A stretch of DNA of 64,000 nt from Beroe forskalii (Eukaryota > Ctenophora > Nuda > Beroida > Beroidae): NCBI GenBank assembly GCA_011033025.1, contig WFMF01000438.1, positions 89,258 through 153,257 on the forward strand, given 5' to 3'. A program made the position numbers and the translations under genes. Shown piece after piece: positions 1,346-63,749 of this stretch (position 1 is its first letter; every line of letters begins with the position of its first letter). Below the pieces are notes generated by a model. That model made no database searches. It was given only the letters and a program-made list of their open reading frames with translations, and had not been told where the DNA came from.

Positions 1346-1464
1346 ATGACGATTCCCCAGTACTGGAAATCAGCGATTTATAATGAGGTGTATGATCTGT
1401 TATATGAATTGGTTTTGTGTGAGTTGAAGAGGTGCATTTCGGAGTTGAGAGTGACGTCATTATT

Positions 1465-23112: not shown

Positions 23113-25311
23113 GCTGTTTGCGTTGTGCGCGGCGCGCTTTTTCAGGTTGCTTAACACGTTTGCTAAACACGTATGTCCCTGTTATCGTCGCGCTTCATCA
23201 GAACAGGGAAGCGCCGCGGCGCCGCGCGCGTTATACACACACCTATGCGGGTTTAGGACTTTAGGAATTCCCCAATGATCATGAATTCATGATGTGGCGC
23301 GCGCAGCGCGTACACAAACATATGCGAGCTTAGGAATGCAAAGGTGTGTGATGTGTGTTTATGCCATAGTGCCATACTGATTGCGGCGTGCGCGCAACGC
23401 GAGCACTGAGCAGGGATTTATGTTTTTAGCAAAAACCGACGCAGCACGCATCATAACCAATAACAAAACCGACGGCGCGCGCATTGTCTATCGATGATCA
23501 TGATAGACCCTGCTGCAGAGAAATCAACGACGGAGATGCGACGCTCTGCAGATTTATAAAGTTAATTGGAATTAGTGTATTACCAAGCAAAGGGATTCCT
23601 TGATCAGATCATACAAATGTAATTTCTTTCGTAGGATGTTACCCTACCCTCGCGCGCGCGGCGCAACGTTCCACATTTGGACGTCACTTTGCGCCTTCAG
23701 AAGAAAGGGACGGACATCGCCCGTCGATAATTTCTTCTTCATTCATTTTCTCGTCTATGCTCTTTTTATTTGATCCACACTTTTTTCATCAGATAAATTT
23801 GTCATGTGGGAAGGGATTAGCTTTAGTAGAGCTTTTTATTGCATGACATGATTGCAACTGGCAAGAATCAAAAACTTTTTAGGGTTAACTTAACAACACT
23901 ACTTTATACAATCAAATTTGAGCAGGTAGACGTATGTGCAATGACGCCCCCCAAGGGGAGGAAATGACGATGTGATCTGCAGCCAAGACAGCTTGAATCA
24001 AGAAGAATTCACCTCTCAGCTCTACTGTTGGTTATCTTCGAATTTGGTTATTGATCCTGTATATCTTCAGCATGGGTTCTTTCTTTGAATCAATTCAAAC
24101 TGAGATAGCTCTCTCTTCAAAACACATTGAAAAAATTACTGGTCTGTTTAAAAATAAAAATGTTAATGTTGCACAGCTGAAGCAAAAGTTAGACAAGGAT
24201 GAAATGGCAAATTTCATCTTTGATTTTATGAAAAGGACAGAGTGTTGTGTAGAGTTATTAAGAAAAGCAACCAGTGAAGTTGAATCAAATCAGAAGGAAA
24301 GTAAGGCTGCTGGAAACAGAATCATCCAGTTACAAGAGGAGTTATTGTGCACTAAAACAGACCAGATCAATAAGTTCCAGTCTATGGTTGATAACAAGCT
24401 CAAAGACACTATCAAAACAGAGATGAAGAGCTACAGTGATGCAGTTAAGAAAGATGCTGGTCAGACTTTAACATATAAGGAACATAAAGACTGCTGTTAA
24501 AGATATTGTGCAGAAGGGGTCTGAGGAGAGGGACAAAAACCTGATACTTTTTGGAGTTCCTGAGGAAGATGGTGAAGATGTGAAGGATAAGGTCAATAAT
24601 ATATTCAACAGTATAGATGTCAAGCCCAGGTTTGATGCAGCTCGTTTTGGAAGAGTTGAAGGGAAGAAACCTATACGTGTTACAGTGGAAAATAGTAAAA
24701 TACTGAAACCGTGTTTGAGGTGCTAAAAGTGGCCAAGAACCTAAAGCAGGACCAGGCTTATAAAAGTGTCTTCATTAGCCTGGACAAGAGCCCAGAAGAA
24801 CGTGCTGAGAGGAGGAAGTTGGTGCAAGAGTTGAAGAAGAAGATTGCTGAACACCCAAGGAAGAAATTTGTTATAAGACGGGGTGAAATTTGCTGTGCAA
24901 TGGAAAATGAAGTAGTGTCATCTGAGCAGGGGGAAACAAGTGAAAAGGCTGCTGCAGGAATGGAAGTGAAACCCCAGTGGAGGCCCCCTCACTTCAAGAA
25001 ACCTCCTGCTAGAAAGCCTGTTGATTCTGAGTCTTCAATAGACAGTTCGGACTATTGAAAGTTGTTATATTTTGTAATTTTAAAGGTTTCATCTTAAGTT
25101 TTAAAATGGAATCAGTACAAATTTTACCTGATGATGTCAATTCATGAGTGATCAGCAAGAATGACATACCATGAACAATATTGCTGTGTTTTGAGGATGA
25201 ATGTTTGAGCACTGAAGGGTATCCTTTTGACTAGATTCCTTTATTTGTTTTCATCACCGCACGTTGAGGCGGAGCCTTTGATCAGGGCATTCAGAGTTAT
25301 ATATATATATA
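23113..25311 (+). mobile_element. ORF1-only LINE-like element, copy A
   Basis: Shares both ends and internal order with 30558-32708: a CpG-rich 5' region starting GTTTGCGTTGTGCGCGGCGC, an ORF1-like protein, a short 3' region containing GTTGAGGCGGAGCCTTTGAT, and a TA microsatellite tail. No endonuclease or reverse-transcriptase ORF is present between ORF1 and the tail. A shared internal structure in two dispersed copies points to a non-autonomous family rather than two independent truncations. Confidence 0.75.
24072..25058 (+). pseudogene. LINE ORF1-like protein, frameshifted (copy A)
   Basis: N-terminal helical region, then an RRM-like core with RDKNLILFGVPEEDG, the motif FGRVEGKKPIRVTVEN, and a C-terminal SLDKSPEERAERRKLVQELK, as in ORF1 proteins of L1/CR1-type LINEs. 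A one-base insertion near 24475 and an 8-bp insertion near 24695 break the frame relative to copy B. Residues MGSFFESIQTEIALSSKHIE mark the likely start at 24072. In LINEs this protein binds RNA as a chaperone in the retrotransposition particle. Confidence 0.75.
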
Positions 25312-26011: not shown

Positions 26012-27070
26012 TTAACTACCAAAGTCACGTAATAAGTTCGTTTTCTGGCGCCAATTTTCGCTATTATTCGCGTTTACAGGGTTACATGCTCTCCATTTTA
26101 CAGGTAGGCGTGGGCGGGGTTCTTGACAAGTAATCCCCTTGCTCGTCACGTCCTCGTCCCTCTTGCGGATGAGAAATGCTTCCCGTTTTTTCCAAAGTTG
26201 TTCGGATATGGACTGATTATGTGTAGCTTCCTCTGTCCACATCGACATGATCTCGTCCGTAACATCGTCGTTAAGATCCAAATCTTCAGCTCGCTGCTTG
26301 ATTATCTCGTCCATTTCTCGTGTTCTGGCTTGATGGTGTTCCATGTACTGCTTCATTAGGGTAACATCCTCTTTGTACTTCCTTGAGGCCTGATTAATTT
26401 TCAGTTCTACTGCCGTGTTGCAGTCACTGGGGTTAATTCTAGGCCTGTACTTGAAAGGGAGGTAGTCCGGATGCTCTTCCATCCAAGCTTCATAGAGTTG
26501 GGACTTGCGTGAGTTCTGTAGGAATTTCCAGTAACTCTTCTTGCGAGCGTTCATCGTGTCTGACCAGAGTATCGCGTTCTCTGACTTGAACTTCCTGGCA
26601 CCCTTAATTCTGGATGCCTCGCTTTGCTTCTGTAGAGTGGCCTCGTCTGTTTTCTGGAATCTTTGCTCCAGCGCCAGTAGTCTTGTCAGGACGCTCTGGT
26701 CGCCCTCACTTGGAGTGCTATCTCTGGCAATATTTCTTTGGGGGCTTGCCTCGTGACATGTGAGCAGGGCTGAATTCTCTTGTGACGTCATGAATTGCGT
26801 CATCAGTGACCCAATCTTATCAATCCTCTGTTCAAGGCAGTAGCATTGGATTGAAGCTCCCTCATCAACACATTGTTCTTCACGGCTTTGTTCTCCAATC
26901 TTTAACTCGAGAGCTTCTAATCTCGAGTTGATTTTACTGAGATGAGTAGCTAGATCAACGATAGTCTCCTTGTTCCTGAATGCCAAGTTCTGGAGTTCGG
27001 ACAAAGAGCTTCTGCTAGCTTCCTCTGCCTTGTTTTCTTTTCTTGTCTTCATAGTTCTTTCTCTGTCCAA
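26012..27070 (-). CDS. Intact 352-residue coiled-coil ORF of the single-ORF retroelement
   Basis: The only uninterrupted copy in the window. It lies between two same-orientation 558-bp repeats, as expected for LTR - ORF - LTR. The protein starts MDRERTMKTRKENKAEE, has charged coiled-coil segments at about residues 25-65 and 225-310, a central basic aromatic patch (ARKKSYWKFLQNSRKSQ, about residues 174-190) and ends ENWRQKTNLLRDFGS. No zinc knuckle, protease, reverse transcriptase or integrase is present. By position and composition a Gag-like structural role is possible; this is inference only. Confidence 0.7.
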   Translation of the reverse strand: MDRERTMKTRKENKAEEASRSSLSELQNLAFRNKETIVDLATHLSKINSRLEALELKIGEQSREEQCVDEGASIQCYCLEQRIDKIGSLMTQFMTSQENSALLTCHEASPQRNIARDSTPSEGDQSVLTRLLALEQRFQKTDEATLQKQSEASRIKGARKFKSENAILWSDTMNARKKSYWKFLQNSRKSQLYEAWMEEHPDYLPFKYRPRINPSDCNTAVELKINQASRKYKEDVTLMKQYMEHHQARTREMDEIIKQRAEDLDLNDDVTDEIMSMWTEEATHNQSISEQLWKKREAFLIRKRDEDVTSKGITCQEPRPRLPVKWRACNPVNANNSENWRQKTNLLRDFGS

Positions 27071-27206
27071 GACAATTCTGAAACACAGGTCTCGTGTTGA
27101 GCAGCGGAAATACGACGGTCTCCCTTGGTGGTATAATGGTTAATGAGTGGCGTAGTGTTACGTACACCGTTTGTCTTCTCGCTGAGTCGACTGGCACACC
27201 GTGGGG

Positions 27207-27769
27207 TAATGTATAGGTTAGGTCTAAAACAATGCGATTATTGCTCTAGGTGTGTCATAAATCCACTATCATCAATTCACAGAGACTTTGTCGGGATTAT
27301 GGTGCATGACGTCATCTTTGGCTTTGTCGTCTTTTAGCGTGGTTCAAGCGTCAAGTTTCAATGATTCAAAACGTGAAATTAAAGTTGAAGTAAACGACTG
27401 GTTGAGCTGGTAAAGTAAAATCTTTCGCCCGTCTTTTCATTAGTTTAGGGGCTTATCAAACACTCAACGTAACAAGTTGCTGATATCAAAAACTAATTTC
27501 ACGTGATCTTCAATCATGCTCCTTTATAAAGTCGAAAATCTGCCATAATGGAAATTGGCCATTCACTAATTAGCAAATTCGTACTATGATTTTAGTACGT
27601 ATTAATAACGCTGGCAAAGATAAATGAGCCTATTTGCCACGTTCGAAACGAATTAAATTAAATCCGTATCATTACGAAATAACTGACTATCTTAGAAATC
27701 TCTTCATTCACCCCATTAAAATGTGAAAATATGAATCGAGATTTATTCTAAAATAAAATTCTCAGTCTG
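27207..27769 (-). repeat. Long direct repeat, 5' copy of the inverted element (LTR-like)
   Basis: Same 558-bp block as 25312-25870 in the same orientation, about 1.9 kb apart. Read on the minus strand it starts TGAGAATTTTATTTTAG; the match with the other copies ends at GTCTG, giving the outer element border. Confidence 0.75.
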
Positions 27770-27929: not shown

Positions 27930-28245
27930 AAGTGGTGCCAGGGTAAAGTGGTGCAAGGGAAAACTGATGTCAGGGAAAACTGGTGACAGGGTGAAGCAGT
28001 GGCAGGGTAAACTGCTGTCATTGTTAATTTGTGTCAGGGTACAGTGGTGTCATGGTTAATGTGTGTCAGGGAAAACTGCTGCCAGGGCTTTGTGGTTTCT
28101 GGGTGAAGTGTTGTCGGGGTTAAGAAGTGCCATAAGTGGTGTGAGGGTAAGGTGGTGTCATTGTGAAGTGGTGCCAGAGTAACATGGTGCCAGGAATATT
28201 GGTGTCAGGGAAAACTGCTGTCCGGGTTTAATGGTTTCACAGTAA
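27930..28245. repeat. Degenerate minisatellite with GTGGTGCCAGGGTAA words
   Basis: Irregular units of about 14-28 bp such as GTGTCAGGGTAAACTG and AAGTGGTGCCAG. The reverse complement contains GACACCACTTC-type words also seen at 39.3 kb and 53.8 kb. Confidence 0.65.
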
Positions 28246-30557: not shown

Positions 30558-32708
30558 TTTGCGTTGTGCGCGGCGCGATTTTTCATGATTGCATCACGTT
30601 TGTTAAACACGGTATGTCCCTTTATCGTCGCGCTCTTTTCATCAGAACAGGAAGTGCCGCGGCGCGTGCGCGCGCAGTATACACACCTATGCGGCTTTAG
30701 ACTTTAGTGAATTTCAATGATCGCGAATTCATGATGGTGCGGCGCAGCGTACACAAACATATGCGAGTTTAGGAATGCTGTGTGTGTGATATGCCATAGT
30801 GCCATACTGATTGGTGGCGTGCGCAACGCGAGCACTGAGCAGGGATTTATGTTTTTAAAAACCGACGCAGCACGCATCATAACCAATAACAAAACCGACG
30901 GCGCGCGCATTGTCTATCGATGATCATGATAGACCCTGCTGCAGAGAAATCAACGATTCTGAGATGCGACGCTCTGCAGATTTATAAAGTTAATTGAATT
31001 AGTGTATTACCAAATGATTCCTTGATCAGATCATACAAATGTAATTTTTTCGTAGATGTTACCCTACCCAGGCGCGCGGCGCAACGTTCCACATTTGGAC
31101 GTCACTTTGCGCCTTCAGAAGAAGGGACGGACACGCCCGTCGATAATTTCTTCTTCATTCATTTTCTCGTCTATGCTCTTTTTATTTGATCCACACTTTT
31201 TTCATCAGATAAATTTGTCATGTGGGAAGGGATTAGCTTTAGTAGAGCTTTTTATTGCATGACATGATTGCAACTGGCAAGAATCAAAAACTTTTTAGGG
31301 TTAACTTAACAACACTACTTATTACAATCAAATTTGAGCAGGTAGACGTATGTGCAATGACGCCCCAAGGAGGAAATGACAATGTGATCTGCAGCAAGAC
31401 AGCTTCAATCAGAAGATTCACCTCTCAGTACTCCTGTTTGCTATCTTCAATTTGGTTATTGATTGTGTATATCTTCAGCATGGGTTCTTTCTTTGAATCA
31501 ATTCAAACTGAGATAGCTCTCTTCAAAACACATTGAAAAAATTACTGGTCTGTTTAAAAACAAAATGTTAATGTTGCACAGCTGAAAAAAGTTAGACAAG
31601 GATGAAATGGCAAATTTCATATTTGATTCTATGAAAAGGATGGAGTGTTGTGTAGAGTTATTAAGAAAAGCAACCAGTGAAGTTGAATCAAATCAGAGGA
31701 AAGTAAGGCTGCTGAAACAGAATCATCCAGTTACAAGAGGAGTTATTGTCACTAAAACAGACCAGATCAATAAGTTCCAGTCTATGGTTGATAACAAGCT
31801 CAAAGATACTATCAAAACAGAGATGAAGAGCTACAGTGATGCAGTTAAGAAAGATGCTGGTCAGACTTTAACAATAAGGAACATAAAGACTGCTGTTAAA
31901 GATATTGTGCAGAAGGGGTCTGAGGAGAGGGACAAAAACCTGATACTTTTTGGAGTTCCTGAGGAAGAAGGTGAAGATGTGAAGGATAAGGTCAATAATA
32001 TATTCAACAGTATAGATGTCAAACCCAAGTTTGATGCAGCTCGTTTTGGAAGAGTTGAAGGGAAGAAACCTATACGTGTTACAGTGGAAAATACTGAAAC
32101 TGTATTTGAGGTGCTAAAAGTGGCCAAGAACCTAAAGCAGGACCAGGCTTATAAAAGTGTCTTCATCAGCCTGGACAAGAGCCCTGAAGAACGTGCTGAG
32201 AGGAGGAAGTTGGTGCAAGAGTTGAAGAAGAAGATTGCTGAACACCCAAGGAAGAAATTTGTTATAAGGCGGGGTGAAATTTGCTGTTCAGTGGAAAATG
32301 AAGTAGTGTCATCTGAGCAGGGGGAAACAAATGAAAAGGCTGCTGCAGGGATGAAAGTGAAACCCCAGTGGAGGCCCCCTCACTTCAAGAAACCTCCTGC
32401 TAGAAAGCCTGTTGATTCTGAGTCTTCAATAGACAGTTCGGACTATTGAAAGTTGTTATATTTTGTAATTTTAAAGGTTTCATCTTAAGTTTTAAAATGG
32501 AATCAGTACAAATTTTACCTGATGATGTCAATTCATGAGTGATCAGCAAGAATGACATACATGAACAATTTGGCTGTGTTTTGAGGATGAATGTTTGAGC
32601 ACTGAAGGGTATCCTTTTGACTAGATTCCTTTATTTGTTTTCATCACCGCACGTTGAGGCGGAGCCTTTGATCAGGGCATTCAGAGTTATATATATATAT
32701 ATATATAT
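30558..32708 (+). mobile_element. ORF1-only LINE-like element, copy B
   Basis: Same start, order and TA tail as 23113-25311. It is shorter through many one- to few-base gaps across the 5' region and ORF. After ORF1 there are only about 260 bp to the tail, with no endonuclease or reverse-transcriptase coding. Confidence 0.75.
31481..32449 (+). pseudogene. LINE ORF1-like protein, copy B (5' part frameshifted)
   Basis: The start codon at 31481 corresponds to 24072 of copy A, but 2-bp and other small losses near 31519-31560 break the first 40 codons. The frame is then open from 31607 to 32449 (280 codons), with a locally shifted stretch around 31695-31750. It keeps the RRM-like core (RDKNLILFGVPEEEG, FGRVEGKKPIRVTVEN) and the C-terminal SLDKSPEERAERRKLVQELK without the two interruptions seen in copy A. 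Confidence 0.75.
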
Positions 32709-33545: not shown

Positions 33546-33627
33546 ATGATTCTGACAATAATTCTAATGCTTCTCTTTGGAACTCTTGATTCATGGGATT
33601 ACTGCATCATTGGAGCTGGTCCTGGAG
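33546..33627 (+). CDS. FOXRED2: FOXRED2-like exon 1
   Basis: Signal peptide and [10 protein letters not shown], the start of the FAD-binding Rossmann fold; the donor GGTAATAG leaves phase 1. Confidence 0.9.
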
Positions 33628-36600
33628 GTAATAGTAATGGATTATAACTTAGTATAAATGAATCAATCACAAATTGTTCATTAATCATTTAATTAATCTG
33701 ATGTTACTCATGTTTGAGTTCAAGTTCAGAGTTGGAGAAAAGTTCTTGTAGATCATTATAACTTACAACACAACACATATTAAATTGACTAACTGAGGAT
33801 GTGTTGAGGCTGCTCCTCGGAGATCCTGAAGATGATTCATAGCTTTTCATAAAGTCAATCTTAAAGTTATGAATCGAAACTGTCAGTTGATATTGTGGAG
33901 TAGTTATTTGGCTTGAATCATTATTGTTACTTTCAATGAAAGACAGCAGTTTTATTAGATATATATCATGTAAGCTGTTATTCTTTGTATTTTTGAAGGT
34001 ATACAAAGTTCACATAATTAGATAATTATATTACTTTTGTTCCAGGTCTTCAAGTAGCATATTACCTACAAAAAACAGGGCTCGATTATGTTATCATTGA
34101 AAGAAACACAGTGCCAGGTGAGTTATCATATAACCCAGGTGCAAAAAGTACCTTGGATTCAATGCAACAAACATTAAAAAAGCACCCAAGCTAGGGTTTC
34201 CATTATCTACTTGAAATCTTTTATCTAGATAAATAGATAATTTTTTCGCAATTATCTAGATTATCTAGATAATCTAGATAATTTTTGAATCCGAAATTTG
34301 CACATATTTGACACAATTTTCAACGTAAGAAATACACAACTGTTGTAGTGGAGTATCATCCAACAACTAGCTGTCGGTATTCATATTGTTGCTTACAGAA
34401 TTCATATTGTTGGTTATTAAAATGTATGATATTAATGGCCACCTTATGTTCATATTTTGATATCAAATGAAGTTCAGGAAATTCATTGTTTCTGATTGAT
34501 TGAGTTCAAATCAGAAATCACCCATAACAGAGTAACAACAACCTCATCTACCAATTATTTGCTATAAACACTTGCATTATTCATCGGAAAGGAGTCAATT
34601 AATGATGAATTAAGGTTGATTTCATGATGATGCCCTCGGAGAGTCGGAGTTGCTGGAATGAGAATAAGAGAATAAGAAAGAAGGAATAAAATTTCCTCAT
34701 TGAATCACCATAACATACCAAAGTTAACGTTTGCTCGAGCTGGATGCTTTGCTAGTTTAATGTTGGATATTTTGAGGGTAAGTTTTAAACACTCAATCAC
34801 TTTGCAATAGCTGGAGACTACTTTCGTACAGATTTTCATCCTATATTTTGAAAAGGGCGCCAATATCTTGTGACAGAATATAGTGGAGCAGAATATCGAG
34901 AGTTATTACTTTATTATCATTAAGAGTAAAGGAGTAAGTATTCAACTTTTACTCTTTTAGTTCGTTAGAGTGACAAAATATGACGATTTGTATGGTGTAA
35001 TAAGATCCTTTGAACATTGCCTTCTAGTTCTCAAGTTTTGTCGTTATTCATTTCAATATGACAAAGGTCAAATTATAAATTTAACAGAATAACAGATTGT
35101 ACTTGAAGTCGAACAATCTGTCCATGAACCTGGGAGCCCTGAATATGAAGCAATGTTCATAGAAGTATGAAGTGAGTAGTCCAAGTCCATCTATGCATAG
35201 CCATTTAAGGTTTCTTATTACCTTAGATCTCCAAAACGGATATGAAAATGAACAGAACAGAAATTTGGAATATTTTAAGTCCAATAATCATTAAAAAAGT
35301 TCTAGAAAATGGTGAATTTGGCTGAAATTTCTCGACAAAAGGGATATGAAGTTTATCTAGATATCTAGTAAAAATTATCTAGATAAATAGACAAAGATTT
35401 TTTGCAAATTATCTAGATAATCTTATCTAGATAATATCTAGATGGAAACCCTAACTCAAGCTTGGTGTAATACACAGCCCCATAATGAGGAATACTGATA
35501 AGATGAGGATTAATTGATTGTTGTATAGAGAAAGAAATCTTCAAATTTAAATCTGCTTTCTACAAACAGTTTATCTATGCTTAAGGTACATTATCCTTCC
35601 TGATATCAATCCTAGGTTCATTTTTTGAAGTCTACCCACGTCGGCGAACACTGATCTCCATCAACAAGCGATACACTGGAGAAACAAACACAGAGTTCAA
35701 CATGAGGCATGATTGGAACAGCCTACTTAGCGATGACCCTGAGATGGTTTTCACTCGATACAGCAAGGAAATGTTTCCGCCAGCTGATTCTCTTGTAAGT
35801 AATAGATTTAAGATATTTTACCTGTTTGATTGTAAACATTTCATGTGTCAAGGGCTATTCAATTGTTGAAAGTGAACCAATCATGTCTTATCTGTGCTTT
35901 CTGGCTTAGATCTTTCATATTTGTTGGATGTTGGTGTTACAAGAACTAAGAAGTTTACCTTTTTTTCAGTCAATTTAAGCATTGGCTATCTAACAATATT
36001 GCACTGCTAGATGATAATTAAAGCTTTACCATAATTCTTTTTCAGTTGGATTATTTTCGTGATTATGCAGATAAGTTCAAGCTAAACATTCACTATGGCA
36101 CAAATGTGGAAAATGTGATACAGGAATCAGCAGAACACAGTTTTATTCTCACAACAAAAGATTCTGGGATCTATTCTTGTAATTATGTGGTGGCTAGGTG
36201 AGGTTCATTACATTCTTGCTGGTTAAAAGTGACTGAATGCTTGAAGTCTTGTTATGGTGAATCTGGGGTGTTGTTGGTCCATATTTTTGATGTATTGTCT
36301 ATATCAATCCAGAATAAACTGATTAAAATTGCAGAAAAGGGCATTTAAGTGAAAGTACCTGCCTATTTCATACCTTTATCAATTTCAGTACAGGGATATC
36401 GGTTCTAAATCAGTTCAGTAAGAATAACTTAAGAGGGAAGGAACTTATTGAGGTAAATGCTGTAGCTTCTGTGCGTTTAATAGCTGGGCTGTTATAAACG
36501 CTTGTCTGCTTTACATATTCTTTCAATGTTTAAGTTCAAATGGCAAGCTGCTCAAACCAGATTAAATATGTAGGTACCTACTTACCTAAAAGCTTAAACA

Positions 36601-39600
36601 GAATGACTGAACTACCTATAACAGAGTATTTAGGGAATCTAAGTAGGGGATTTGTCATTCTTATATCTAACTGAATTATACAGAAATAACCACACTTTGT
36701 AAATACATAAATATCTTTAGCGGTAATCTATCATTACAAACATTCAACGGTACTATCAGTTGAGTAGTTACTTTTGTAGAGCATCAAAAAGCTGTGCACA
36801 AAGCTTACTTTCCGTTCAAATTATCGTATCATTTGACCTTGTAATGAGTTGGAATTACTCCCAGCTCTTTGTTCGTAACTCTGCTGGTAGCTGCATTTTG
36901 TGTACATGACTTGGTATCATGGCCCACGTGTGAAAATGGGGAGCCTAATGATTTACATAGAACAGTAACTTGAAATTCAGCGAATTTCTCCCAGCTTTAG
37001 ATCATGTGTCTCACACCGCGAGGATAGTTGTTTGAAGCAATTTGTTGCAAAGCATTGGCAGGCTTGAGGCTGCTTGACTCAACAATATGCAGCATTTCTC
37101 ATCACGATGTGTATTCTCCAGGTCAAGTATAGGTCTAACATAACCATCTGATGTAGGAGTGTTGAGTATTGAGTAATTACTGATACAGGAGGGCGGGGAG
37201 GGGAGAATGGGGAGTTGCTGCTGAGACAGGAGGGCGGGGAGGGGTGAATGGGGAGTTGTTGCTGAGACAGGAGGGCGGGGAGGGTGAATGGGGAGTTGTA
37301 ACCCTGCCGGTTGTATGAATGATGGATTATGTCATCCGATAGCCAATTTAAATCCCACTACCTAGAAAGTGACTTACTTTAATGCGCTATGACAGAACGT
37401 CTGCCTTATATCCGCACTTTAAACATGACGTATTTCCCAAGACGTATTGAGTGTTTTACCACAGAACAACAAACATCTGTCTTTAAGGCATTCAAATGAT
37501 ATACACCTTCTGTAAACTCAAAATCATTCCGTAAGTTTATACGCATCTTATGATTTAAGTATCTGATTTTGTATTTCGGTCATAGCATCTTAGCATGAAT
37601 ATTGGATTCCGGAAGTAAGTCGTAACATGAATTTAGAAACATGTAGTTCATTGATCCACAGACCGATATAATATCAGTGGGAGATATTAGATAAGTTACA
37701 GAAGCTAATTAACTTGCAGCTATACCAAAATTTAAAGGGTTAAATGTGCACTACAGCTATTGTATATCTTTCACCCACAAAACGCATGATTTAGGGCACA
37801 ACAAGTCCCACCAATTAGCTAATTGAAGAATATGATTGCAGATAGAAACCTTACTCCCTGTTGATTGTTTGACTCCAAAACTACCGTTACTCAGTGATTC
37901 ATAATGGAGAAGATCCCATACAAACTTTTGTGAATCTAAAAGTCTCAGGATCATACATTCAATGATCAATAGCTGTTGGTGACACACTGTAAACAAGATA
38001 TAGGGACAGCACCGATCTCTAGTTCCATCGGACCAGTGATTGATAATCTTGTGTAGATACAGCATCGATCTCTAGTTCCATCGGACCAGTGATTGATAAT
38101 CTTGTGTAGATCACAGAACCTGTGATTGATAATAACTCATGATAGCATGATATGTGGTATTGAGTTCCCATCGTGATACAGCTACCTACCTCCTCCAGTC
38201 CTCCTCTTGTCTGCTGTACAATGTAATTAGACATGATGGCTAATTCTAGCTGGTACAATACTTATTATCGGTCGTATCATGGCCCTCAGCTGCAAAAATC
38301 ATAGGAAAATGCCTTCCCAATTCACACTCCGGTTGTGCATTGGACCAGTGTTTCATTTACTATAAGCTCAATATTTTATTATAGTTGTTCATTCTTTTAC
38401 CTTTGTACCACCAAAAACGATATCAATTAAATAGCCATCAACAATAACTTCACTGCAGTACCCTTTTCTAACTGACAATCTTTTCAGGGTTATGACACAG
38501 TAACGCATGATCCTGAGCAGTTTGAGGGGCAGAAGGTTCTCATCCTTGGTAAAGGTTGGTAGAAATATGGAATAAAATTGATCATATTTATTTTGGGTTT
38601 CCCGAAAAAACTCAAGTGTCCCCAAAATTTAATTCTATATTGATACTATCGCCCTTACATTCTTGTGAACTAAGTCAGCTCAAAATTTCTTCTTTTCGCT
38701 TACCACCATCCATCCTAATGATTTTGTCAGTAAATAAAACCATTTTCACATTGTGCCAGTGATGCTGTGCCAAAAGAGAATAGATTAATCACTTTTCTCA
38801 GTATTCATTAAACTATGCGACTCCTATTTAACATTTAACGATTCGTGGAGTCATTTAATCCTAAGCTTCGTAACCCAATCCACTTCCATCAGGTAACTCT
38901 GCGTTTGAAACAGCGGATCTGATTTACGGACATACAAGCTTCGTACACCTCTTTTCAAGGTAAAAATAACATGATTCTATGATCGTCTCAGCAAAATGTG
39001 CAGCTGTTCCCAATCCTCAAGATTGAGATTTCTGCAATTTGGAGTTGTGCAATCTTAAAATGAGAGTGCATCAATATGAGAATCTGACACATGAATGGTA
39101 CTCGAATCGGTAAATCCAATCTAAAGTTATAACTATTTGAAGGATTGCAATTTAACAGCGAATATTTTTGAAAAATGGTGCTCCTCTGAGAGGATCGTTT
39201 TGATTGAATCACAAAGTATGACAAACTCTTACTATGGTCAACAGCGTGAATACCCAAAGGTTCAAATACCTCGTTAACATTGACACCACTTCTTACAGGA
39301 ACAGAGTGAAACTTTGCTATCATTGACACAACTCCTCACTTTGCTAACATTGACACCACTTCTCACTTTGCTAACAGTGACACCACTTCTCACTTTGCTA
39401 ACATTGACACCACTTCTCACTTTACTAACATTGACACCACTCCTAACTTGGCTGAGTTTGACACCACTTCTCACAGAGACCGAGTGAAACTGTCCTGGAA
39501 CACGCATTACGTTGGAGATGTGAGGGGAGTCAATAACCAACTCCTTGACACCTACCAGCTCAAATCCCTTGACGCTTTGATAGGTCAGTGTTGCTAACAT

Positions 39601-42600
39601 TGACACCACCTACTTGTCTCAAATCCCTTGACGCTTTGATAGGTCAGTGTTTAGCTCCTTCTCACCTACCAACTCAAACCACTTCTTGACTGCTTTGATA
39701 GACACCACTCCAGTGTTTAGCTATCATTGACACCCACCAGCTCAAATCCTTGACGCTTTGATAGGTCAGTGTTTGCTAACGTTGACACCACCAGCTCGTC
39801 CCTTGACGCTTTGATAGGTCAGTGTTTTTCTTCCAGAGACACGAGTGAAACTGTCCTTGACGCTTTGATAGGTCAGTGTTTAGCTCCTTGACACCTACCA
39901 GCTCAAATCCCTTGACGCTTTGATAGGTCAGTGTTTCCTTTCTATAAATCTAGTTCATAAGTTCAGTGGATTGGGCGATGTCATTCTAAACTTGTTATTT
40001 TACTTTTACTCGACTGCTGACTTACACTCAAAACCTGATGCATTGTATTTTGTGTTATTACCAAGACTTGACACCAAGTCGTTTGAACAACACCTAAAAC
40101 TACCACGTTACTTCTTACTTTCAATTAGTGATTGCTGTAAAACGAGTTGATCGTTGTTAAAAGCTCTATGGGCTGCCTGCCAGTATAGACCGCGTGCAAG
40201 TAACTGCTTAAACTACCAGTTCGATTTCATCGATTCAACATTTTAAATCGTTAAAATGACATCGTTCTCCTCCGTATACAATACCCCGCGCACGAAAAAT
40301 AGGCGGTTTTTTCAATTAATGGTGCATGAGACGGCCACATACCAGCCAATCTCATCACGGATTCAATTAATGAGCCCCATGAAGTGTGATGAAACTATAC
40401 CACGAGCGCAAAAAAGGCGGTATTTTAAACAATCTGGCAGTGCGCACAATGTTAATGACATCATTGCGGCCGCCTATTTATTCTGAGCGCACATTACAGC
40501 TCCTCAAATACTGTTTAGTTTTATCATTTGATGCACTGCATCACATATAGTATGCATCTATCTGGTACTTATAAACCACTTACAAACTTTAAACCGGGAG
40601 GTTTCCTAAACACAAAGCGATCTATAAGCATACACATCCGATAGGATGCAGCTGGCAAGTTGCCAAATGCTAATGACGTCATTATCATGGCTTATAGTGG
40701 TGCTTCATTGCCGTTAAACATTCTGTCATCCGTACATGACCCGTAATATGCCTACTATTCGTTAAACGAGAGGAGACGCGGTCACTGAACTGTAATCGTT
40801 GTCATAATGGCAAGGTAAATAGTCGTGGTATTATTTAATACTTTAAGTATTTATACGGATTTATAAGCAAGCTGATGGTTATATAAATACTGGAAGCTGC
40901 CATGAAGTTGCTTTATATTTTATAGAAGTTGCTCCATATCATAGAGAGTGAGAGGGTTTTACCTATTGTGTGATAGCTGCTTGATTTGATAATGGGCTAA
41001 TTGGTCTCTCGTAAGTGTTTTTGGGTGGAACTGCCGAAATTCTGTAGATCAAGATTCAAGTTGGAAGGATACCAGCAACAAGAATCAGGTAAGCAAGTAT
41101 CTGATAGTTCTATACTATAAACTTATAAAGGAGGGGCACCCCCGCGGCCGCACAGGTGGACTCGAAAGAGACCACCTGCAAGCTTAGTAAAACATCCAAA
41201 TGGGTTCCAGTCGAACACTCCGAGGGAAACTGTTCAGTTAAGTTCCGCTCACCCTTCGTCCCTCCAGGGTGGGTGAGGCTCATTGCACCAAAAAAGTAGA
41301 TAATCTGCAAATCTATGTTGTAAAGAAAAATTGAAGTGAGTTGCCGAATTTTCTACTTGATTAGCTGGTTTTTCAAAGTCACTTGATGATCAGCTTATTA
41401 ATTCGAAAATTCTCTATTCTCTTAGAAGTCCATATATCGAATTGTCACAAACACTTGAGAAGTTGAGTGCAAAAAATGATTGATATCAGCCTCATTCTAA
41501 GAATTCTGTATTCTCTAAGAATTCCACCTAACCTTTTATCGATTCATTTAAACAGCTTTACCAATATAACAATATCATCATAAGTAGCAAGTAAATAGTA
41601 AACACTTGCATCATAAAATCAATTTTAGCAAAATGAGCATGTCATACTATGTAAATACCTACAATAAATCTGTTTCCCTCAAATTCTCAGTTGTTATATT
41701 AGGATTTAGCAACCTGTCACAAAAGAGACGAATTGAAGTGATGGGTGAGGGGAGAGGGGTGAGGGTGAGGGGTGAGGGTAAGGGGTTGGTGAGGGGTTAG
41801 GGGGTGAGGGGTTAGGTGAGGGGTTGGGGTGAGGGGTGAGGGGTTGGGTGAGGGGCTGGGGTGAGTAACCCTATCTAACACTCCCTGCTCTCTCAGAAGC
41901 AGACCTAGATTCGGGGGAGTGGAGTGTAGAGCAGGCTAATGGGTTACGGTGAGGGGTCAGGGTTTAGGGGTGTGAGGGGTTGGGGTGAGGGGTTGGGGTG
42001 AGGGGTTAGGGGTGAGGGCTTGGTGAGGGGTGAGGGGTGAGGGGTTGGGTGAGGGGCTGGGGTGAGTAACCCTATCTAACACTCCCTGCTCTCTCAGAAG
42101 CAGATCTAGATTCGGGGGAGTGGAGTGTTGAGCAGGCTAATGGGAAGCTGTACCTCCACCTGAAGGATCAACCTGAGGATGATAATTCCTGGGGACCATA
42201 CGATAGGATCATCAACTGTCTCGGATTCAACGTGAGGCATATGTTGGGTTTTCGTTTCGTTTTCTCTCTTTCTTTTTCTGATTTCTATTAAATGTGAAAT
42301 AAGTATCCCATGTTTCGTTTTTCCCGTTTTTTGTCACAATGGAACATATTCGACCATCGTGGAAGTCGTGAAGCTTAAATACTATTTAAGCTTAATGGTA
42401 TTAATGGTGTTGTATTTCCTTATTTTAGTTTGGTACTGGAAGCTCTGATAAATTAATGGGTCTCGTCTATTCCCTTACGGTTTCACTGAGAATTCAGTGT
42501 TTAAAATATACCATCTTAATGGTGATTTTAAACTGATAAAGAAGCGAGCATCTAAATGAGTAGTGTTACCCTGGTAACCAGTTCAATAGAAAACCAGCAG

Positions 42601-45600
42601 AGCTTTGATTAGGAAATCCTCAAAACACCGATGATATATATTTCTACGTTCCCCGCAACGTCATCAAATTCATATCATTCTAAAGCATGGTGATTTCTTT
42701 ACTCTCACCTGGGAGTTCAATTCTTGGATTCCTCTGAATTACTTGGAGCTATGAACTTTCAATAACTCACGGATTCTCCCCTCTCAGTTTGACCCCGTTC
42801 CGTTTGTGAACCTAACAAAGTCGGCCCCTGAAGAAGAGGAAGTGAATGAGGAAGAGGAAAGGAGGAGAAGGAAATACCCTGGGATGGGATGGGACTTCCA
42901 GTCAACTGACACTCCCAACCTTTACTATGGTATTTACTATTTTACAGCTCATTCTATACCCACATTCTGAATCGATGCCATCGATATACCATTCCAAACC
43001 ATCAACATGATCGATGACCAAACTCTTTTTTAATCTCTGAGTCACTGTTTGTCTCAGCTGGGACGATTACTCACGGGATAGACAAGCGACTGTCATCGGG
43101 GGGATTTATACACGGATTCAGATACACCGCCCGATCATTGGCATGGTTACTTGCTGCCCGTAACCATGGTATCAGGTACGATGTCATGGTAACTTTGCAA
43201 AGGAGCAAAGCACCTTCACAAGTTCATTTCTTAATGAACTTGTAAATTTAGTTATGATATTGGGTTTGATTTTATTCTTACTCCTACAATATTAACATAT
43301 TATCCATGTTCAGGTGGCCCAGCTTTACCATTCCTCTGCACGGAGTTGCTACTAGCATCATGAAGAGGATGAATGAGATGAGCGGACCTTACCAGGTTCG
43401 TTAAAACCTTGTAGTGATTAGAACCAAATGTTACTGATAAACGTGAATGTAGAAATGATGAACCCAAGATTGAGATTCTTTTCAATTCTTCCTCGCTATT
43501 CATCCTCTCCCACTAACTGTCTGCATTCTCACATCTTTCCATCCCCTTGTTCCCACTCAGATGTTCTAAATGTTCCTAATCCCATTTCCCACTGACATGC
43601 TCCCTATTCCCTATTCCCACTAACATGTTCCCTAATTCCCACTCAGATGTCCCCTATTCCCTAATTCCCACTCAGATGATCTAAATGTTCCCTATTCCCA
43701 TTTCCCACTCAGATGTTCTAAATGCTCCCTATTCCCATTTCCTTATCCCTTATTCCCTAATTCCCACTCAGATGTTCTACGTGTTGGTGGATGTGTACAT
43801 TAGGTGGGATAATGACAACGTTGAAGTGCTGTACAACGTTCCTCATGGCATGCTCCACCGTATTCATGGTCAGTCACTCCTCCTTCTATCTTACAGATTC
43901 ATAGATAACAGGGATGTTTTACTTTTATGCTTAGATGGCTTCCGCATGGATCAAACTGTAATTTGTATTCGAACCTTGAGCAAATATCATGAACTTTTAG
44001 CAAATATGATGGACCCAAAATTAATATTTGGCGCTCTGAATCTTCATCGATGCTACAGATTCCAGTTTTCAGCGCTAAAATGATTATAATGAACACTCAA
44101 ACCCTCCCCTTAGAGCTGCTAGGAGAATCTTACAAGGAGGGAGAAGAAGATACAAAACACTGGGATATGATAGTAGTGAGGCTGGAGTATGGGGCACATT
44201 ACTCCAAAGTGGGGGGCGACCCCTTCACCAGGGACAGAGTAGAGGTTTGTATAGCTAAGGAAGGGATATTTCAGTGACTATGATGACAGGGGTTTCGGAG
44301 TTTTGTTTGGCGAAATATAGGGATTTAAGATTATTTCTAGTTCTCAAAAAATGCCCACGTCTCTTGAAAGGTTGTAAGGTTCTTGTATGTAACAGCAGAT
44401 GCCACACTTTGAGAGAGTACGTAAACAGTTATTTCCCATTTCCTTATACTGCACAGTATCTCAATCTCTAAAGTTTGAGTACTGAGCAACTGAACATCAT
44501 GACAGTTTAAATTTCAATATATCATTCCATAGAACATAGAATACGGATATTATGCGGACACGCCCACTGTCCCACTATCAAAGCTTATAGCAGGAGAGCA
44601 TTAACTCAACCATATTTCTAAGATATAGATTCCAGACACTAGATTGCAATGGACTTGCAGACCTAGAATTTCGGTATTTAATTTATAACCCTACTCACTC
44701 TCATCTAACTTTGACTTCTTAACTCTTCATACCTTCTTAACTCCTCTTAAAACGCTGAATTGAATAGTTGTACAGTTGACAGGGCATAAAACTCACAAAG
44801 ACCTTGTCCAGGCTCCTCTAAGAATTAGAAGTAGAACTATTTGGTTTAGTGGCACTCATATCATGCAGGACTTGCTGTATAGTTGGTGATGGGGGATGAG
44901 GCAATTATTATAGCTGGAAATGGTGAATTGCTTTCGTTCAGCAACTATCATTCGAACTAGGACTTCGCTCTGAGATCAGCTATGCACTTTAGATGTGAAA
45001 ACTACGTAACTTGTCGCTGTAAAGAGTTATCTCGAAAATTTGGAACATTTCAACTAATGCCCCATTTCCACTTCAGAATATGTTGGATAGTCTCGCCTTA
45101 AAATATCTCAATATATTTACCATGTAAAGATCTTCCATTTCATCAAAGGTCCACTCTCCAGACATTTCACTTTAAACTGGCATCCTAGACGCGCCATTCA
45201 AATTGTGAATAATATGCCCAATGCTGCTGTAGGGAACGTTCAACGTAAATGGGATTGGCTACTCAACAGTTCTTCATCAATTCGACAGATTTAGTGTAGT
45301 CTGGGTTTGCACTATCTAACCATCTACCTTATCACCAAGTTTGTGGAAATTCCAAATTTAGAAATTGTAGAAGCATAATTTAAACGCTGAGCTACTTATT
45401 ATGGCATTATGCTGGAGCATTGAATGTTCAACAATTTGTACAACGAATTAGAACACACCAACAAAATAGTTCATTTTTTACACCGGGAGATTGGCTGTTC
45501 GACATCATAAGAACAATAAAAATTCATTTGATCTTCTTTGTCTACGGGGGATTGGCTGTTTGGCAGTTTTCCGTATCATTACCGAATAGCTGGTTTGTAT

Positions 45601-47834
45601 TCCTCATTTGAAAATCCCTGTTTTAGGAGCCAGCTATTTGAGAATCTGTAGTAATACCTCAAAAGATTTCACCTAATTGAGTGATTACGGGATAGGAAGA
45701 AGCTGACAGGCGCGTGCTATGGCAAAATTCTGAGTATTTATTTGCAAATTTCTGAGGTTCAGGATTGGCCATATCATTATTCAATGCAGGGATCATTATA
45801 ATACCTTGCCCACTTCACATATATTTCAAATCTTATTGGGCGTTACAAATTACACTGAAGAGGATAGCCGGAATAATTGCCAATGATTGTCTGAGCGCTG
45901 TCAAATTACTTGAATGGCATGGATGAAAATTCTAATAATTCTTGCCGAAAGAAATTTGAGAGTAAGGAAATTTGCTATTACTCTCCAAATTTTCATCGAA
46001 TATTTCGTAATATCACGAGACACCAGCTCGAGACAAGGATACTACTGAGTTGTCGCGTTGTTGTGGTCATGTTGAAATATCAAGAGATGTTGTGTTGGCG
46101 AATGATGGAGGCAACTTTAATTACCTAACAAGTTAATTCTTTCAGCTGGACCCCTTCCTGGCGCTCTCATTCCCCCTATTCCCTAATCCCACATCTCACT
46201 CCCCTTATTCCCTAATCCCACATTTCACTCCCCCTATTCCCTGTTCCCTAATCCCACATCTCACTCCCCCTATTCCCTGTTCCCTAATCCCACATCCCAC
46301 TCCCCCTATTCCCCAATCCCACATCTCACTCCCCCTATTCCCTTATCCCACATCTCACTCCCCCTGTTCCCCAATCCCACATCTCACTCCCCCTATTCCC
46401 TATTCCCTAATCCCTCACCCCGTCCGTTTCAGCTGGACCCGTTCCTGGCTCACACCTGCAACTTCATCCATCCCGTGCTGTACCACTTCACAGCAGCACC
46501 TCACCCAGTGGAGATAAGAACTAAGAAACTGTTGGGATACAATCACAGGATGCACCTGTCTGAGAACCTGTATACGGACTTTGGGACGATCAGAAATCAC
46601 CTGACCCCCCTAACCCACTTCATCAGTGAGTGGAATTTCTACAATTCTGCTTCGTCTTTATGTTTAAAGTGTAAATCCAAAAAGTGCAATCATAGTTCAG
46701 ATTTTCCTCTTCGCGAAAACATAACAATAGCCATAGCCCATATCGTTCGCAATGTAGACACTGTTAGAGACCATGCTATTACAATAGGAACCTTGTGTTT
46801 TGGAACATTGAACATGAATTATGAATCGTGTAGGTACCTATTACAAGTCAGAGCAATTAAGGTTTTGAACCAGGTTAATCCAAGCCCCCTCCTCATTTCT
46901 TAATCTCACTAACACCGGTGCAATACACGTGCTCCTTTCTAAAGCGGTTCAAAGTGCTAATCATCGTGCAAAGGAGTAATCATATACACCCAACTAAACA
47001 CTTCAATTGTACGCCGCTAATTGGTGCCAATACCAAATACCTGCCAAATACCTATACCACAAGTGTGTATACAGGAAAACAGGAATACTAATGACATAAG
47101 CGCTTACTTCACCCTAGAATTGCATGATTAATATACACGAGGAATTTACTCTTGGACCTTGGTACCGTGGAATGGACACAGCAATACCTTCATTTTTGTG
47201 AGAATTTCGCAAATTTGCTGATTGCCAGCGATTCAAATTTGAAAAGTCTTAAAAAGATTATTCCAATCAGTAGACTTTTTATCGCAGAATTTTATGATGA
47301 GAAGTGAAATTATTTCCCATTATTGAGGTACCTTTCCTGAAAATTATCGTAACATTCAGGCTCGGTTTGGTCGGGACAAGACTTGACGCATTCTAACTGT
47401 GAAGATTGTCTGCTGAGTTACTTGACTACTAACACCGTTGCGGAAATGTGCAAAAGACCACCTATCATCGTTGCTCAAAGTATGTGCTCTGATTATGAAA
47501 GTCGTCGCATAAAATGAAAAGAGCATTTAGAAATCCCATTTACTCAGTAATGGACACGCGCATTAAATTTTGGCAAATTTGTTCTTGAAGTGATGGAACG
47601 CGCGAACGTTACATAGAAAATTTGTTAGCATTTACTATGACAAAAGGCGCGCGCGCGCACTGGGAGGCATTTCTGCATTTCAGCGCGCGCGAGCCAAAGC
47701 ATAATATCTTAACCGATTTTTGTGTTTCAGAGTCCGACAATGAAGATTTGGGGAGAAATGGAGTGATTGATACGTTCCCAAAACCAATTTCAACGATTTC
47801 TCCGACCTTGAAGACCTTAACAGACTTGATGTAA
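33546..47834 (+). CDS. FOXRED2: FOXRED2 (ERFAD)-like FAD-dependent oxidoreductase, 16 exons
   Basis: Gene model: exons 33546-33627, 34046-34117, 35616-35794, 36046-36197, 36389-36452, 38488-38554, 38893-38959, 39477-39583, 42098-42231, 42788-42929, 43058-43175, 43314-43395, 43772-43868, 44114-44244, 46433-46625, 47731-47834, about 596 residues. All junctions are GT-AG and phase-consistent. It opens with a hydrophobic ER signal ([12 protein letters not shown]), then the FAD-binding GAGPGG (residues 23-28) and a second Rossmann motif GKGNSA (204-209). Blocks such as [40 protein letters not shown] and FIHPVLYHF match the animal FOXRED2 family. In mammals this ER-lumen flavoprotein assists ER-associated degradation with SEL1L, OS-9 and ERdj5. 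Exons 1-15 are firm; the last exon is uncertain because it lacks the expected KDEL-type ending. Confidence 0.9.
34046..34117 (+). CDS. FOXRED2: FOXRED2-like exon 2
   Basis: Encodes [20 protein letters not shown], completing the dinucleotide fold with its acidic strand end; acceptor TTCCAG, donor GTGAGT. Confidence 0.9.
34192..35453. mobile_element. hAT-like TIR element in intron 2 (1,262 bp)
   Basis: Ends TAGGGTTTCCAT and ATGGAAACCCTA are inverted. They are flanked by ACCCAAGC (34184-34191) and ACTCAAGC (35454-35461), an 8-bp duplication with one mismatch. TIR sequence and 8-bp duplication fit the hAT superfamily. Both ends carry clusters of TTATCTAGATAA palindromes (about 34220-34285 and 35345-35440). 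No transposase ORF is seen, so the copy is non-autonomous. It sits wholly inside intron 2. Confidence 0.8.
35616..35794 (+). CDS. FOXRED2: FOXRED2-like exon 3
   Basis: Encodes [20 protein letters not shown] through MFPPADSL, including the family block [10 protein letters not shown]; donor GTAAGT, phase 0. Confidence 0.9.
36046..36197 (+). CDS. FOXRED2: FOXRED2-like exon 4
   Basis: Encodes [20 protein letters not shown] and continues to YVVA; acceptor TTTTTCAG, donor GTGAGG. Confidence 0.9.
36389..36452 (+). CDS. FOXRED2: FOXRED2-like exon 5
   Basis: Short exon encoding [20 protein letters not shown]; acceptor AATTTCAG, donor GTAAAT, phase 0 at the end. Confidence 0.8.
37187..37302. repeat. 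G-rich minisatellite, about 41-bp unit, 3 copies (intron 5)
   Basis: Units of ACAGGAGGGCGGGGAGGG plus GAATGGGGAGTTG. Several G-runs per unit make + strand G-quadruplexes possible. Confidence 0.75.
38007..38110. repeat. 52-bp tandem duplication (intron 5)
   Basis: Two nearly identical copies of a unit containing GATCTCTAGTTCCATCGGAC and GATAATCTTGTGTAGAT. Confidence 0.8.
38488..38554 (+). CDS. FOXRED2: FOXRED2-like exon 6
   Basis: Encodes [20 protein letters not shown] then GK. Two donors are possible, after CTTG (38548) and after GGTAAAG (38554); both keep the frame. The second is chosen because it completes the second Rossmann motif as GKGNSA, as the family requires. Confidence 0.85.
38893..38959 (+). 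CDS. FOXRED2: FOXRED2-like exon 7
   Basis: Encodes [20 protein letters not shown] then FS, completing the second dinucleotide-binding motif. Confidence 0.9.
39290..39470. repeat. 27-bp minisatellite against the exon 8 acceptor
   Basis: About six units of CACTTTGCTAACATTGACACCACTTCT with variants. The last unit (TTTGACACCACTTCTCACAG) forms the real acceptor of exon 8. A unit at about 39294-39312 reads CTTACAG followed by GAACAGAGTGAAACT, a degenerate copy of the acceptor plus the first exon bases. Confidence 0.85.
39477..39583 (+). CDS. FOXRED2: FOXRED2-like exon 8
   Basis: Encodes [20 protein letters not shown], then [16 protein letters not shown], strongly family-like. Acceptor CTCACAG and donor GGTCAGTG are both embedded in minisatellite DNA that copies them. 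Confidence 0.9.
39584..39945. repeat. Minisatellite of exon 8 3' end plus its donor (intron 8)
   Basis: Five further copies of GCTTTGATAGGTCAGTG follow the real one (near 39632, 39754, 39807, 39860 and 39915), plus one degenerate copy near 39692. Each carries the last exon bases and the 5' splice site. One unit (39837-39871) also gains a polypyrimidine-CAG acceptor and exon-start bases. Confidence 0.85.
39837..39871 (+). pseudogene. 35-nt mini-exon copy of exon 8
   Basis: Preceded by TTTTTCTTCCAG and followed by GGTCAGTG, so it has both splice sites. It joins exon 8 start bases (AGACACGAGTGAAACTGTC) to exon 8 end bases, skipping the middle. Its length modulo 3 equals that of exon 8, so using it in place of exon 8 would keep the downstream frame. 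Confidence 0.5.
41740..42090. repeat. G-rich GGGGTGAGGGGTTAG minisatellite (intron 8)
   Basis: Irregular units of GAGGGGTTAGGGGTGAGG, split in two by a partial copy of exon 9 (41897-41948). Strong potential for + strand G-quadruplexes just upstream of the exon 9 acceptor. Confidence 0.85.
41897..41948 (+). pseudogene. Partial duplicate of exon 9
   Basis: CTCTCAG acceptor followed by AAGCAGACCTAGATTCGGGG and on to GGCTAATGGG, nearly identical to the first 47 bases of exon 9, then G-rich repeat begins and an in-frame TGA follows. Splicing at GGTGAG (41949) would give a 52-nt exon out of frame with exon 10. Confidence 0.75.
42098..42231 (+). CDS. FOXRED2: FOXRED2-like exon 9
   Basis: Encodes [20 protein letters not shown] and then [14 protein letters not shown], the family's conserved loop. 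Its first third is duplicated upstream. Confidence 0.9.
42788..42929 (+). CDS. FOXRED2: FOXRED2-like exon 10
   Basis: Encodes FDPVPF then a lineage-specific acidic/basic stretch ([14 protein letters not shown]) and [19 protein letters not shown]. Confidence 0.85.
43058..43175 (+). CDS. FOXRED2: FOXRED2-like exon 11
   Basis: Encodes [20 protein letters not shown] then [12 protein letters not shown], the best-conserved C-terminal FAD-domain block. Confidence 0.9.
43314..43395 (+). CDS. FOXRED2: FOXRED2-like exon 12
   Basis: Encodes [20 protein letters not shown] then EMSGPYQ; acceptor GTTCAG, donor GTTCGT. Confidence 0.85.
43550..43771. repeat. Pyrimidine minisatellite copying the exon 13 acceptor
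   Basis: Units of TTCCCTATTCCCATTTCCC and CCACTCAGATGTTCTAAATG precede exon 13. At least four copies of CCCACTCAGATG or CACTCAGATGT-type acceptor plus exon-start bases occur upstream of the real acceptor at 43771. Confidence 0.85.
43772..43868 (+). CDS. FOXRED2: FOXRED2-like exon 13
   Basis: Encodes [20 protein letters not shown] and then [12 protein letters not shown]. Chosen over the upstream acceptor copies because only here does the exon read ATGTTCTACGTG with an open frame; the copies read ATGTTCTAAATG, with an in-frame TAA. Confidence 0.85.
44114..44244 (+). CDS. FOXRED2: FOXRED2-like exon 14
   Basis: Encodes [20 protein letters not shown] then [20 protein letters not shown]; donor GTTTGT, phase 0. 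Confidence 0.85.
46146..46425. repeat. Exon 15 start copy plus pyrimidine minisatellite
   Basis: TTTCAG followed by CTGGACCCCTTCCTGG (46146-46161) matches the real exon 15 start at 46433 in 15 of 16 bases. Between them lie about eight units of CTCACTCCCCCTATTCCC and TAATCCCACAT, related to the array before exon 13. Confidence 0.85.
46433..46625 (+). CDS. FOXRED2: FOXRED2-like exon 15
   Basis: Encodes [20 protein letters not shown] through [10 protein letters not shown], matching the C-terminal HPVIYYY-like block of the family; donor GTGAGT, phase 1. Confidence 0.85.
47731..47834 (+). CDS. FOXRED2: FOXRED2-like exon 16 (probable last exon)
   Basis: TTGTGTTTCAG acceptor, phase-compatible with exon 15, then 33 codons ([20 protein letters not shown] and on) to TAA. 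The ending TDLM is not a KDEL-type retention signal, whereas the human protein ends KEEL. The exon at 48799 is also phase-compatible, so the true 3' end is unsettled. Confidence 0.45.
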
Positions 47835-63233: not shown

Positions 63234-63373
63234 TATAGTCATCACACAACACACTGTCATCATAGCACAGTCACTGGAACCAAATAATCATCTCCAAAAA
63301 TGTTAGAGAATTTTATCAATTGAGATTTGAGACCAGGGTTTCAAAGTGGTGCAGGGTTGAAGAAGTCGCGAGA

Positions 63374-63749
63374 AAAACACTAACTTTCTGTTATATCAAT
63401 TGATAAAATCAACTGATTAACTCATGATATTTTGCAGGTCAGTACAGTTTGATCCAACTAAGAAAATGCTGCTTTCAGAATTTTGAATTTCGGCCATTTT
63501 CACGATTTACAGCCTCTCAAAAACCCAATTTTTGGCCTAAAAATGGACTTCTTTGGTTATAAAAACACTAACTTTCTGTTATATCAATTGATAAAATCAA
63601 CTGATTAACTCATGATATTTTGCAGGTCAGTACAGTTTGATCCAACTAAGAAAATGCTGCTTTCAGAATTTTGAATTTCGACCATTTTCACGATTTACAG
63701 CCTCTCAAAAACCCAATTTTTGGCCTAAAAATGGACTTCTTTGGTTATA
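63374..63749. repeat. 188-bp tandem duplication
   Basis: Two nearly identical units (63374-63561 and 63562-63749) starting AAAACACTAACTTTCTG and ending CTTCTTTGGTTAT. A further word, CCGTGTGACTGCCTTCCAG, recurs at about 63796 and 63980, so repetition continues to the window edge. Confidence 0.9.

Follow-up and report, generated by a model that had tools for sequence, protein, structure and literature searches.

The window gene and its copied splice junctions

The window, that is, the whole 64,000-nucleotide stretch of Beroe forskalii DNA analysed here, lies on contig C512 of a genome assembly of 216 Mb in 1134 contigs. It contains a flavoprotein gene with 15 modelled coding exons, the product of which matches the Pfam family Pyr_redox_3 (E 3e-36). 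The gene is presumably FOXRED2-like, a name given in a first reading of the bare DNA letters (hereafter the sequence-only reading), and it is referred to by this name throughout. Its authentic exons and junctions are intact, and the frame joined through the 15 exons remains open over 555 aa, a length that covers the modelled part, as the model ends at 46625 and excludes the 3' end beyond. No second copy of the gene was found in the assembly, all matches (15/15) falling on C512. Elsewhere in the window, repeated ORF copies occur between 17402 and 27245, with a peptide start of SNNRIVLDLTY at 17402, 19296 and 22220 and a minus-strand member at 27015-27245; they look like one mobile element family. 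Two related ORFs at 23997-25058 and 31586-32449 resemble a LINE ORF1, and a 188-bp tandem duplication of 99% identity at 63373-63750 contains the acceptor-like sequence TTTTGCAG.

True exon borders of the FOXRED2-like gene are tandemly copied at five junctions, namely the acceptors of exons 8, 9, 13 and 15 and the donor of exon 8. The features concerned are the following, in window positions.

33547..46625, forward strand: FOXRED2-like flavoprotein gene, 15 coding exons modelled, open joined frame of 555 aa
39284..39476, forward strand: intron 7 array, 27-bp unit in 6.1 copies (TRF 39311-39474)
39477..39583, forward strand: exon 8 of the gene model, both borders copied
39584..39936, forward strand: intron 8 donor array, 54-bp unit in 4.1 copies (TRF 39711-39936)
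39837..39871, forward strand: fused mini-copy of exon 8, 35 nt, exon start joined to exon end, 72 nt shorter than exon 8
41738..42144, forward strand: exon 9 acceptor array, GTGAGGG-type repeats, 201-bp unit in 1.8 copies
42098..42231, forward strand: exon 9 of the gene model
43546..43771, forward strand: exon 13 acceptor array, four upstream copies
43772..43868, forward strand: exon 13 of the gene model
46124..46432, forward strand: exon 15 acceptor array, 29/65-bp units (TRF 46165-46421)
46433..46625, forward strand: exon 15 of the gene model

The identity of the copies was counted over 30 bases, 15 of the intron and 15 of the exon. The acceptor of exon 8 (39477) has a copy at 39299 (26/30 identical), which together with about 15 exon bases forms the upstream end of the intron 7 array. 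The donor of the same exon (39584) is copied at 39643, 39765, 39818, 39872 and 39927, each time with 25/30 identity and with 17-43 exon bases retained. These five copies of exon end plus donor are interspersed with pieces like the intron 7 array, and the arrays on both sides of exon 8 have pieces in common. The mini-copy of exon 8 at 39837-39871, a putative mini-exon, has an acceptor score of 7.2 and a donor score of 8.3. At exon 9, the acceptor (42098) is copied at 41897 (29/30), and the 201-bp unit takes in the acceptor and 47 exon bases. Four copies of the exon 13 acceptor (43772), at 43561, 43647, 43676 and 43713, show 21-26/30 identity and carry 4-8 exon bases. The acceptor of exon 15 (46433) has one copy, at 46146, with 17 exon bases, which reaches only 20/30 since the intron side differs. 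This copy bounds the exon 15 array upstream, its surrounding sequence being unlike the array, and it may be the old exon 15 acceptor, with the array having grown between copy and exon. DNA folding of 46300-46460 revealed nothing unusual (z 0.22).

For counting, a strict rule was adopted, by which a junction is duplicated if a copy of its 30-mer with at least 24/30 identity lies within 1.5 kb. Four of the 29 FOXRED2-like junctions (4/29) count under this rule; the exon 15 acceptor copy, real by eye, fails it. The same rule yielded 0 copies in block shuffles (3 each of 3 sequences), and the copies are therefore not chance matches. The statement of the sequence-only reading that intronic repeats of this gene copy true splice sites with exon bases at exons 8, 9, 13 and 15 is thus borne out, and so is its statement that the repeat units cross the exon-intron border, with exon bases inside the units ranging from 4-8 (exon 13) up to 43-47 (exons 8 and 9).

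Junction arrays in other genes and the question of junction preference

Junction-spanning arrays were also found outside the FOXRED2-like gene, in at least 4/22 gene copies, a lower bound that comes from a TRF search by eye covering L031-L036 and L082. They are listed here by contig.

C225: acceptor array in a myosin intron, 34-bp unit in 8.1 copies
C558: acceptor array in CCT copy A, 31-bp unit, too few exon bases shared to pass the rule
C558: donor array in CCT copy B, 37-bp unit
C458: acceptor array in a CHD4-like gene, 34-bp unit in 56.5 copies

Three further observations were made in this genome. A GGTGTCA-like core (reverse TGACACC) is common to arrays in the window (27930-28227 and 39311-39474) and in L032 (2936-3795), L034 (2241-3281) and L035 (1209-1269), and may be a dispersed minisatellite core. 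In L033 (reversed, 5896; C225:1041609-1042105), two adjoining myosin exons match the same stretch of the motor domain and, from this match, are possibly alternative exons. On each of C558, C198, C695 and C573, like genes form inverted pairs with a spacing of about 12 to 45 kb, the pair aligned being that on C558; such pairs represent inverted duplications or, alternatively, two haplotypes that the assembly has joined.

The two CCT copies, which are inverted on C558 and share 0.946 identity over 3362 aligned bases, allow array and no-array states to be compared. The 31-bp acceptor array of copy A stands opposite a single acceptor in copy B, and the 37-bp donor array of copy B opposite a single donor in copy A. 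Array presence therefore differs between two copies of one gene in one assembly, and array gain rather than loss is the probable direction. An automatic comparison of the gene copies for tandem-copy indels under-called the arrays, which the aligner split, and direct alignments were used instead. The acceptor array has AGAA at each of its two breakpoints, one at the acceptor and the other farther up the intron. At the donor array, GAC is found in the exon and in the copy B intron, and the copy A intron reads AAC, which gives a shared word of 2-3 bp. The breakpoints of the exon 9 unit of the FOXRED2-like gene are likewise readable, and here ATGGG is found three times, in the intron (41741-41745), where the copied piece of exon ends (41939-41943) and in the exon (42140-42144); those of the exon 8, 13 and 15 arrays are unreadable.

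The words at the CCT breakpoints and at the exon 9 unit fit an origin of the arrays by tandem duplication between such short repeats with later expansion, and this origin is proposed here. A 'mirage', a term used for similar repeats in lancelets (see below), would be a tandem duplication with a unit that runs from the intron into the exon or, at a donor, from the exon into the intron. Duplication could begin at any place in an intron where short words recur, and some of the breakpoints would land in an exon. The geometry would render them harmless: next to the exon body one copy keeps exon and junction complete, and the partial copies go to the intron, where slippage or unequal exchange could later multiply the unit. 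Splicing would settle on the exon-proximal copy, most probably through exon definition, in which this site is paired with the far border of the intact exon. What we infer in this scheme is the replication or repair route, the part played by exon definition and the choice of spliced sites.

Two other origins can be weighed against the same arrays. An assembly artefact is very improbable: long arrays are hard to assemble, and several contigs contain inverted pairs of like genes, but substitutions and small indels distinguish the units, arrays of this structure recur on different contigs, and the difference between the two CCT copies can be interpreted. Insertion of a dispersed, introner-like element with splice sites into several introns is hardly credible. 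The 14-mer CCCTCGTGTTTCAG, common to the myosin (C225) and CCT (C558) arrays, would suit such an element; it occurs, however, 15 times in 216 Mb, with 1 occurrence for the backwards control, and in tandem only at C225 and C558, and the FOXRED2-like units bear the bases of their own exon. For this 14-mer, the sole unit sequence searched genome-wide, a dispersed splice-site element was rejected.

The copying of five junctions in one gene could also point to a mutational process aimed at splice junctions, involving for example R-loops, G-rich donors or pyrimidine tracts. The frequency of junction duplication was therefore compared with that at other intron positions in a sample of 78 introns, of which 14 belong to the FOXRED2-like gene and 64, inferred by script from consecutive exon matches of three protein families (CCT, myosin and SNF2), to 22 other gene copies. 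Left out before the count were 13 introns with a splice score below 5, five exon pairs without a solution (one of them L010) and pairs whose profile gap exceeded the limit. As control, the strict rule was applied at random positions of the same introns. Duplicated junctions numbered 8/156 (2/78 donors and 6/78 acceptors) against 12.8 ± 2.6 expected, with P = 0.985 for as many or more and P = 0.04 for as few or fewer; the eight take in L033, where an exon is duplicated in tandem, and the CHD4-like gene, in which the site called as acceptor is an array unit, and leave outside the FOXRED2-like exon 15 and CCT copy A acceptors, which are mirages by eye and fail 24/30. Without the L033 and CHD4-like loci, the count was 6/144 vs 10.7 ± 2.5. 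Restriction to introns with a splice score of at least 7 gave 6/126 vs 8.5 ± 2.2, and changing the threshold gave 10/156 vs 15.6 at 22/30 and 6/156 vs 10.2 at 26/30. In the FOXRED2-like gene alone, 4/28 intron-flanking junctions were duplicated vs 2.4 ± 1.3 at random (P = 0.18), and in the other genes alone 4/128 vs 10.5 ± 2.3 expected.

Some of the data do lean toward junctions. Copied junctions are more frequent in the FOXRED2-like gene than elsewhere in the sample (4/28 vs 4/128, Fisher p = 0.035), a comparison in which the gene had been picked for looking rich. Mean duplication at 16-115 bp is higher before acceptors than after donors, with 0.226 vs 0.095 in 39 introns and 0.339 vs 0.045 in 11 introns of the FOXRED2-like gene; by sign test, however, this acceptor-side bias is not significant (10 introns vs 7, P 0.63, in the 39 introns). 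The duplication profile over 59 introns has no peak at the acceptor junction, running from 0.12-0.17 inside the intron to 0.085 at the junction and 0.01 in the exon. On the donor side of the same 59 introns, it falls from 0.18 far inside the intron to 0.02-0.04 near the junction, where a small local rise (0.034-0.044 vs 0.021 adjoining) is accounted for by two arrays.

The sequence-only reading had regarded the placement of the copies as more than chance, had suggested a slippage or template-switch process focused on splice junctions, and had proposed a genome-wide comparison of junction overlap with shuffled positions. A comparison of this kind, run here on the 78-intron sample with random intron positions, showed no junction excess, and a focus of duplication on splice junctions is not supported in the window gene, in the 78 introns or in the acceptor profile. 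A process aimed at junctions is accordingly quite unlikely. Slippage or template switching as such would still be plausible and fits the short shared words in the two array/no-array pairs of CCT; it is the junction focus attached to it that finds no support. We consider it probable that the arrays are mirage minisatellites, a by-product of introns rich in tandem repeats, for which no attraction to splice junctions need be invoked.

Splice-site strength and possible use of the copies

Splice sites were scored with matrices trained on 45 other introns. Six of the seven upstream acceptor copies in the FOXRED2-like gene score 8.9-14.4, in comparison with 9.1-14.4 for the corresponding real acceptors, the remaining one being the exon 15 copy at 46146 (4.1). 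The five donor copies of exon 8 equal the real donor (8.3 each). In 39000-47000, 16 acceptor-like sites reach a score of 8.5 or more; real acceptors and array copies account for six each, and the remaining four are neither. The repeats thus do multiply candidate splice sites, as the first reading had it.

These scores, together with a report of alternative splicing accompanying boundary repeats in human segmental duplications (PMC2812944), are what would be expected if the copies were functional as alternative or back-up splice sites under selection. Yet six of the seven upstream acceptors in the FOXRED2-like gene would, if used, bring a stop, and the seventh (46146) shifts the frame; the arrays differ between the CCT gene copies; and outside the FOXRED2-like gene the junctions are duplicated less than the intron interior, as if duplication there were mildly disfavoured. 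Selection for use of the copies is, on balance, unlikely, even when the CHD4-like gene described next is counted in its favour. In the FOXRED2-like gene model the real acceptor is the exon-proximal copy, an arrangement that would fit exon definition.

The CHD4-like gene on C458 offers a different picture. In its locus (L082, G000:C458:158801-162900; 1135-3349 of the reversed sequence), 91% of the positions of the intron with the 34-bp array have a near copy, and the array extends into the exon. By homology to CHD4 (6ryr, E 6.4e-32), the exon starts at TATTTC, where the exon-proximal unit lacks an AG and reads CTCTG, not CCCAG. Only 1/29 AG sites between 2713 and 3177 (reversed L082) opens the joined frame, namely that at 3136, one unit upstream, and acceptors farther upstream are closed too, because stop codons interrupt each of the three frames between 2713 and the exon. 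The frame is also maintained from an exonic AG (3202), use of which would delete conserved residues. Splicing at 3136 would add 11 in-frame residues, YFRTLTQLLSL, and this insert corresponds to an 11-residue gap in the four alignments printed against solved CHD relatives. No second copy of the exon was found in the assembly (one match).

That the site one unit up is alone among the upstream AGs in leaving the frame open could mean that a copy is used in this gene. Mirage arrays might then act as a reservoir of spare acceptors for exon growth, and the CHD4-like gene might be an extension by one unit caught in the act, a possibility that we put forward tentatively from the predicted frames. Alternatively, the exon could begin at a TG acceptor, with CTCTG immediately before TATTTC, or the site could reflect a base error or a broken allele. 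TG 3' splice sites have been described in human genes (PMC2374985), and such a site is a possible reading of the CHD4-like border. The suggestion of the sequence-only reading that the repeats could feed exon evolution has one candidate, which lies in another gene, the CHD4-like one.

Comparison with known repeats and implications

Minisatellite-like duplications of intron-exon borders, named 'mirages', have been described in lancelets in Adh3 and in the globins BflGb6 and BflGb9 (PMC3087553), and also in PGBD5 and troponin C (PMC3902484). As in the arrays reported here, the lancelet repeats cross intron-exon borders, involve acceptors or donors, keep the real junction and occur in several genes of a genome. 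Both border types are duplicated here as well, with donors copied at exon 8 and in CCT and acceptors at exons 8, 9, 13 and 15. Unit sizes are 10-160 bp in lancelet mirages and 27-201 bp here. RT-PCR in lancelets suggests that splicing is undisturbed by mirages (PMC3087553), and mirage length is unstable there, at Adh3 even somatically (PMC3087553, PMC3902484). Undisturbed splicing and somatic instability are reported for the lancelet repeats; the present arrays are described from genomic DNA. The host genome also does not resemble that of a lancelet in appearance. No Hox-like homeodomain was recognized by eye among 20 sequences read from the best 26 of 104 homeodomain matches, and no Hox-like cluster was apparent in this list; an Antennapedia control scored 83.7 bits, within the range of the best matches. 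Innexins are present in the genome with 13 matches; together with homeodomains and myosins they point to an animal, and with the absence of Hox from the 20 domains read they would suit a ctenophore.

Repeats in human genes offer partial parallels. The human 6-16 minisatellite, presumably in IFI6, reportedly contains multiple splice donors, several of which, going by the title of a 1995 paper by Turri, serve the transcript. Like the arrays here it repeats donor sites, the donor copies here being predicted. In human genes located in segmental duplications, tandem repeats at exon-intron boundaries have been tied to new introns and alternative splicing (PMC2812944). As described there, they are boundary minisatellites (units of about 30 bp, about 4 copies) that vary between gene copies, as do the arrays in CCT; many lie within exons, and RNA supports their tie to splicing, whereas the present arrays are mainly intronic. 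Intron gain by tandem duplication (PMC4974935, PMC2891723) similarly places extra splice signals in a gene, but in the present genes existing introns grow and no new intron was seen. A literature search, mostly of titles and with few subscription journals, found no further animal reports of mirages beyond the lancelets and the human repeats.

The arrays are a further case of the known mirage kind, and this case suggests that mirages follow from a high load of intronic minisatellites. A null model in which duplication may occur anywhere and is tolerated if the exon-proximal copy stays intact provides a baseline for testing claims of junction-targeted mutation. The arrays also offer naturally occurring series of identical splice sites, on which the choice made by the spliceosome may be tested.
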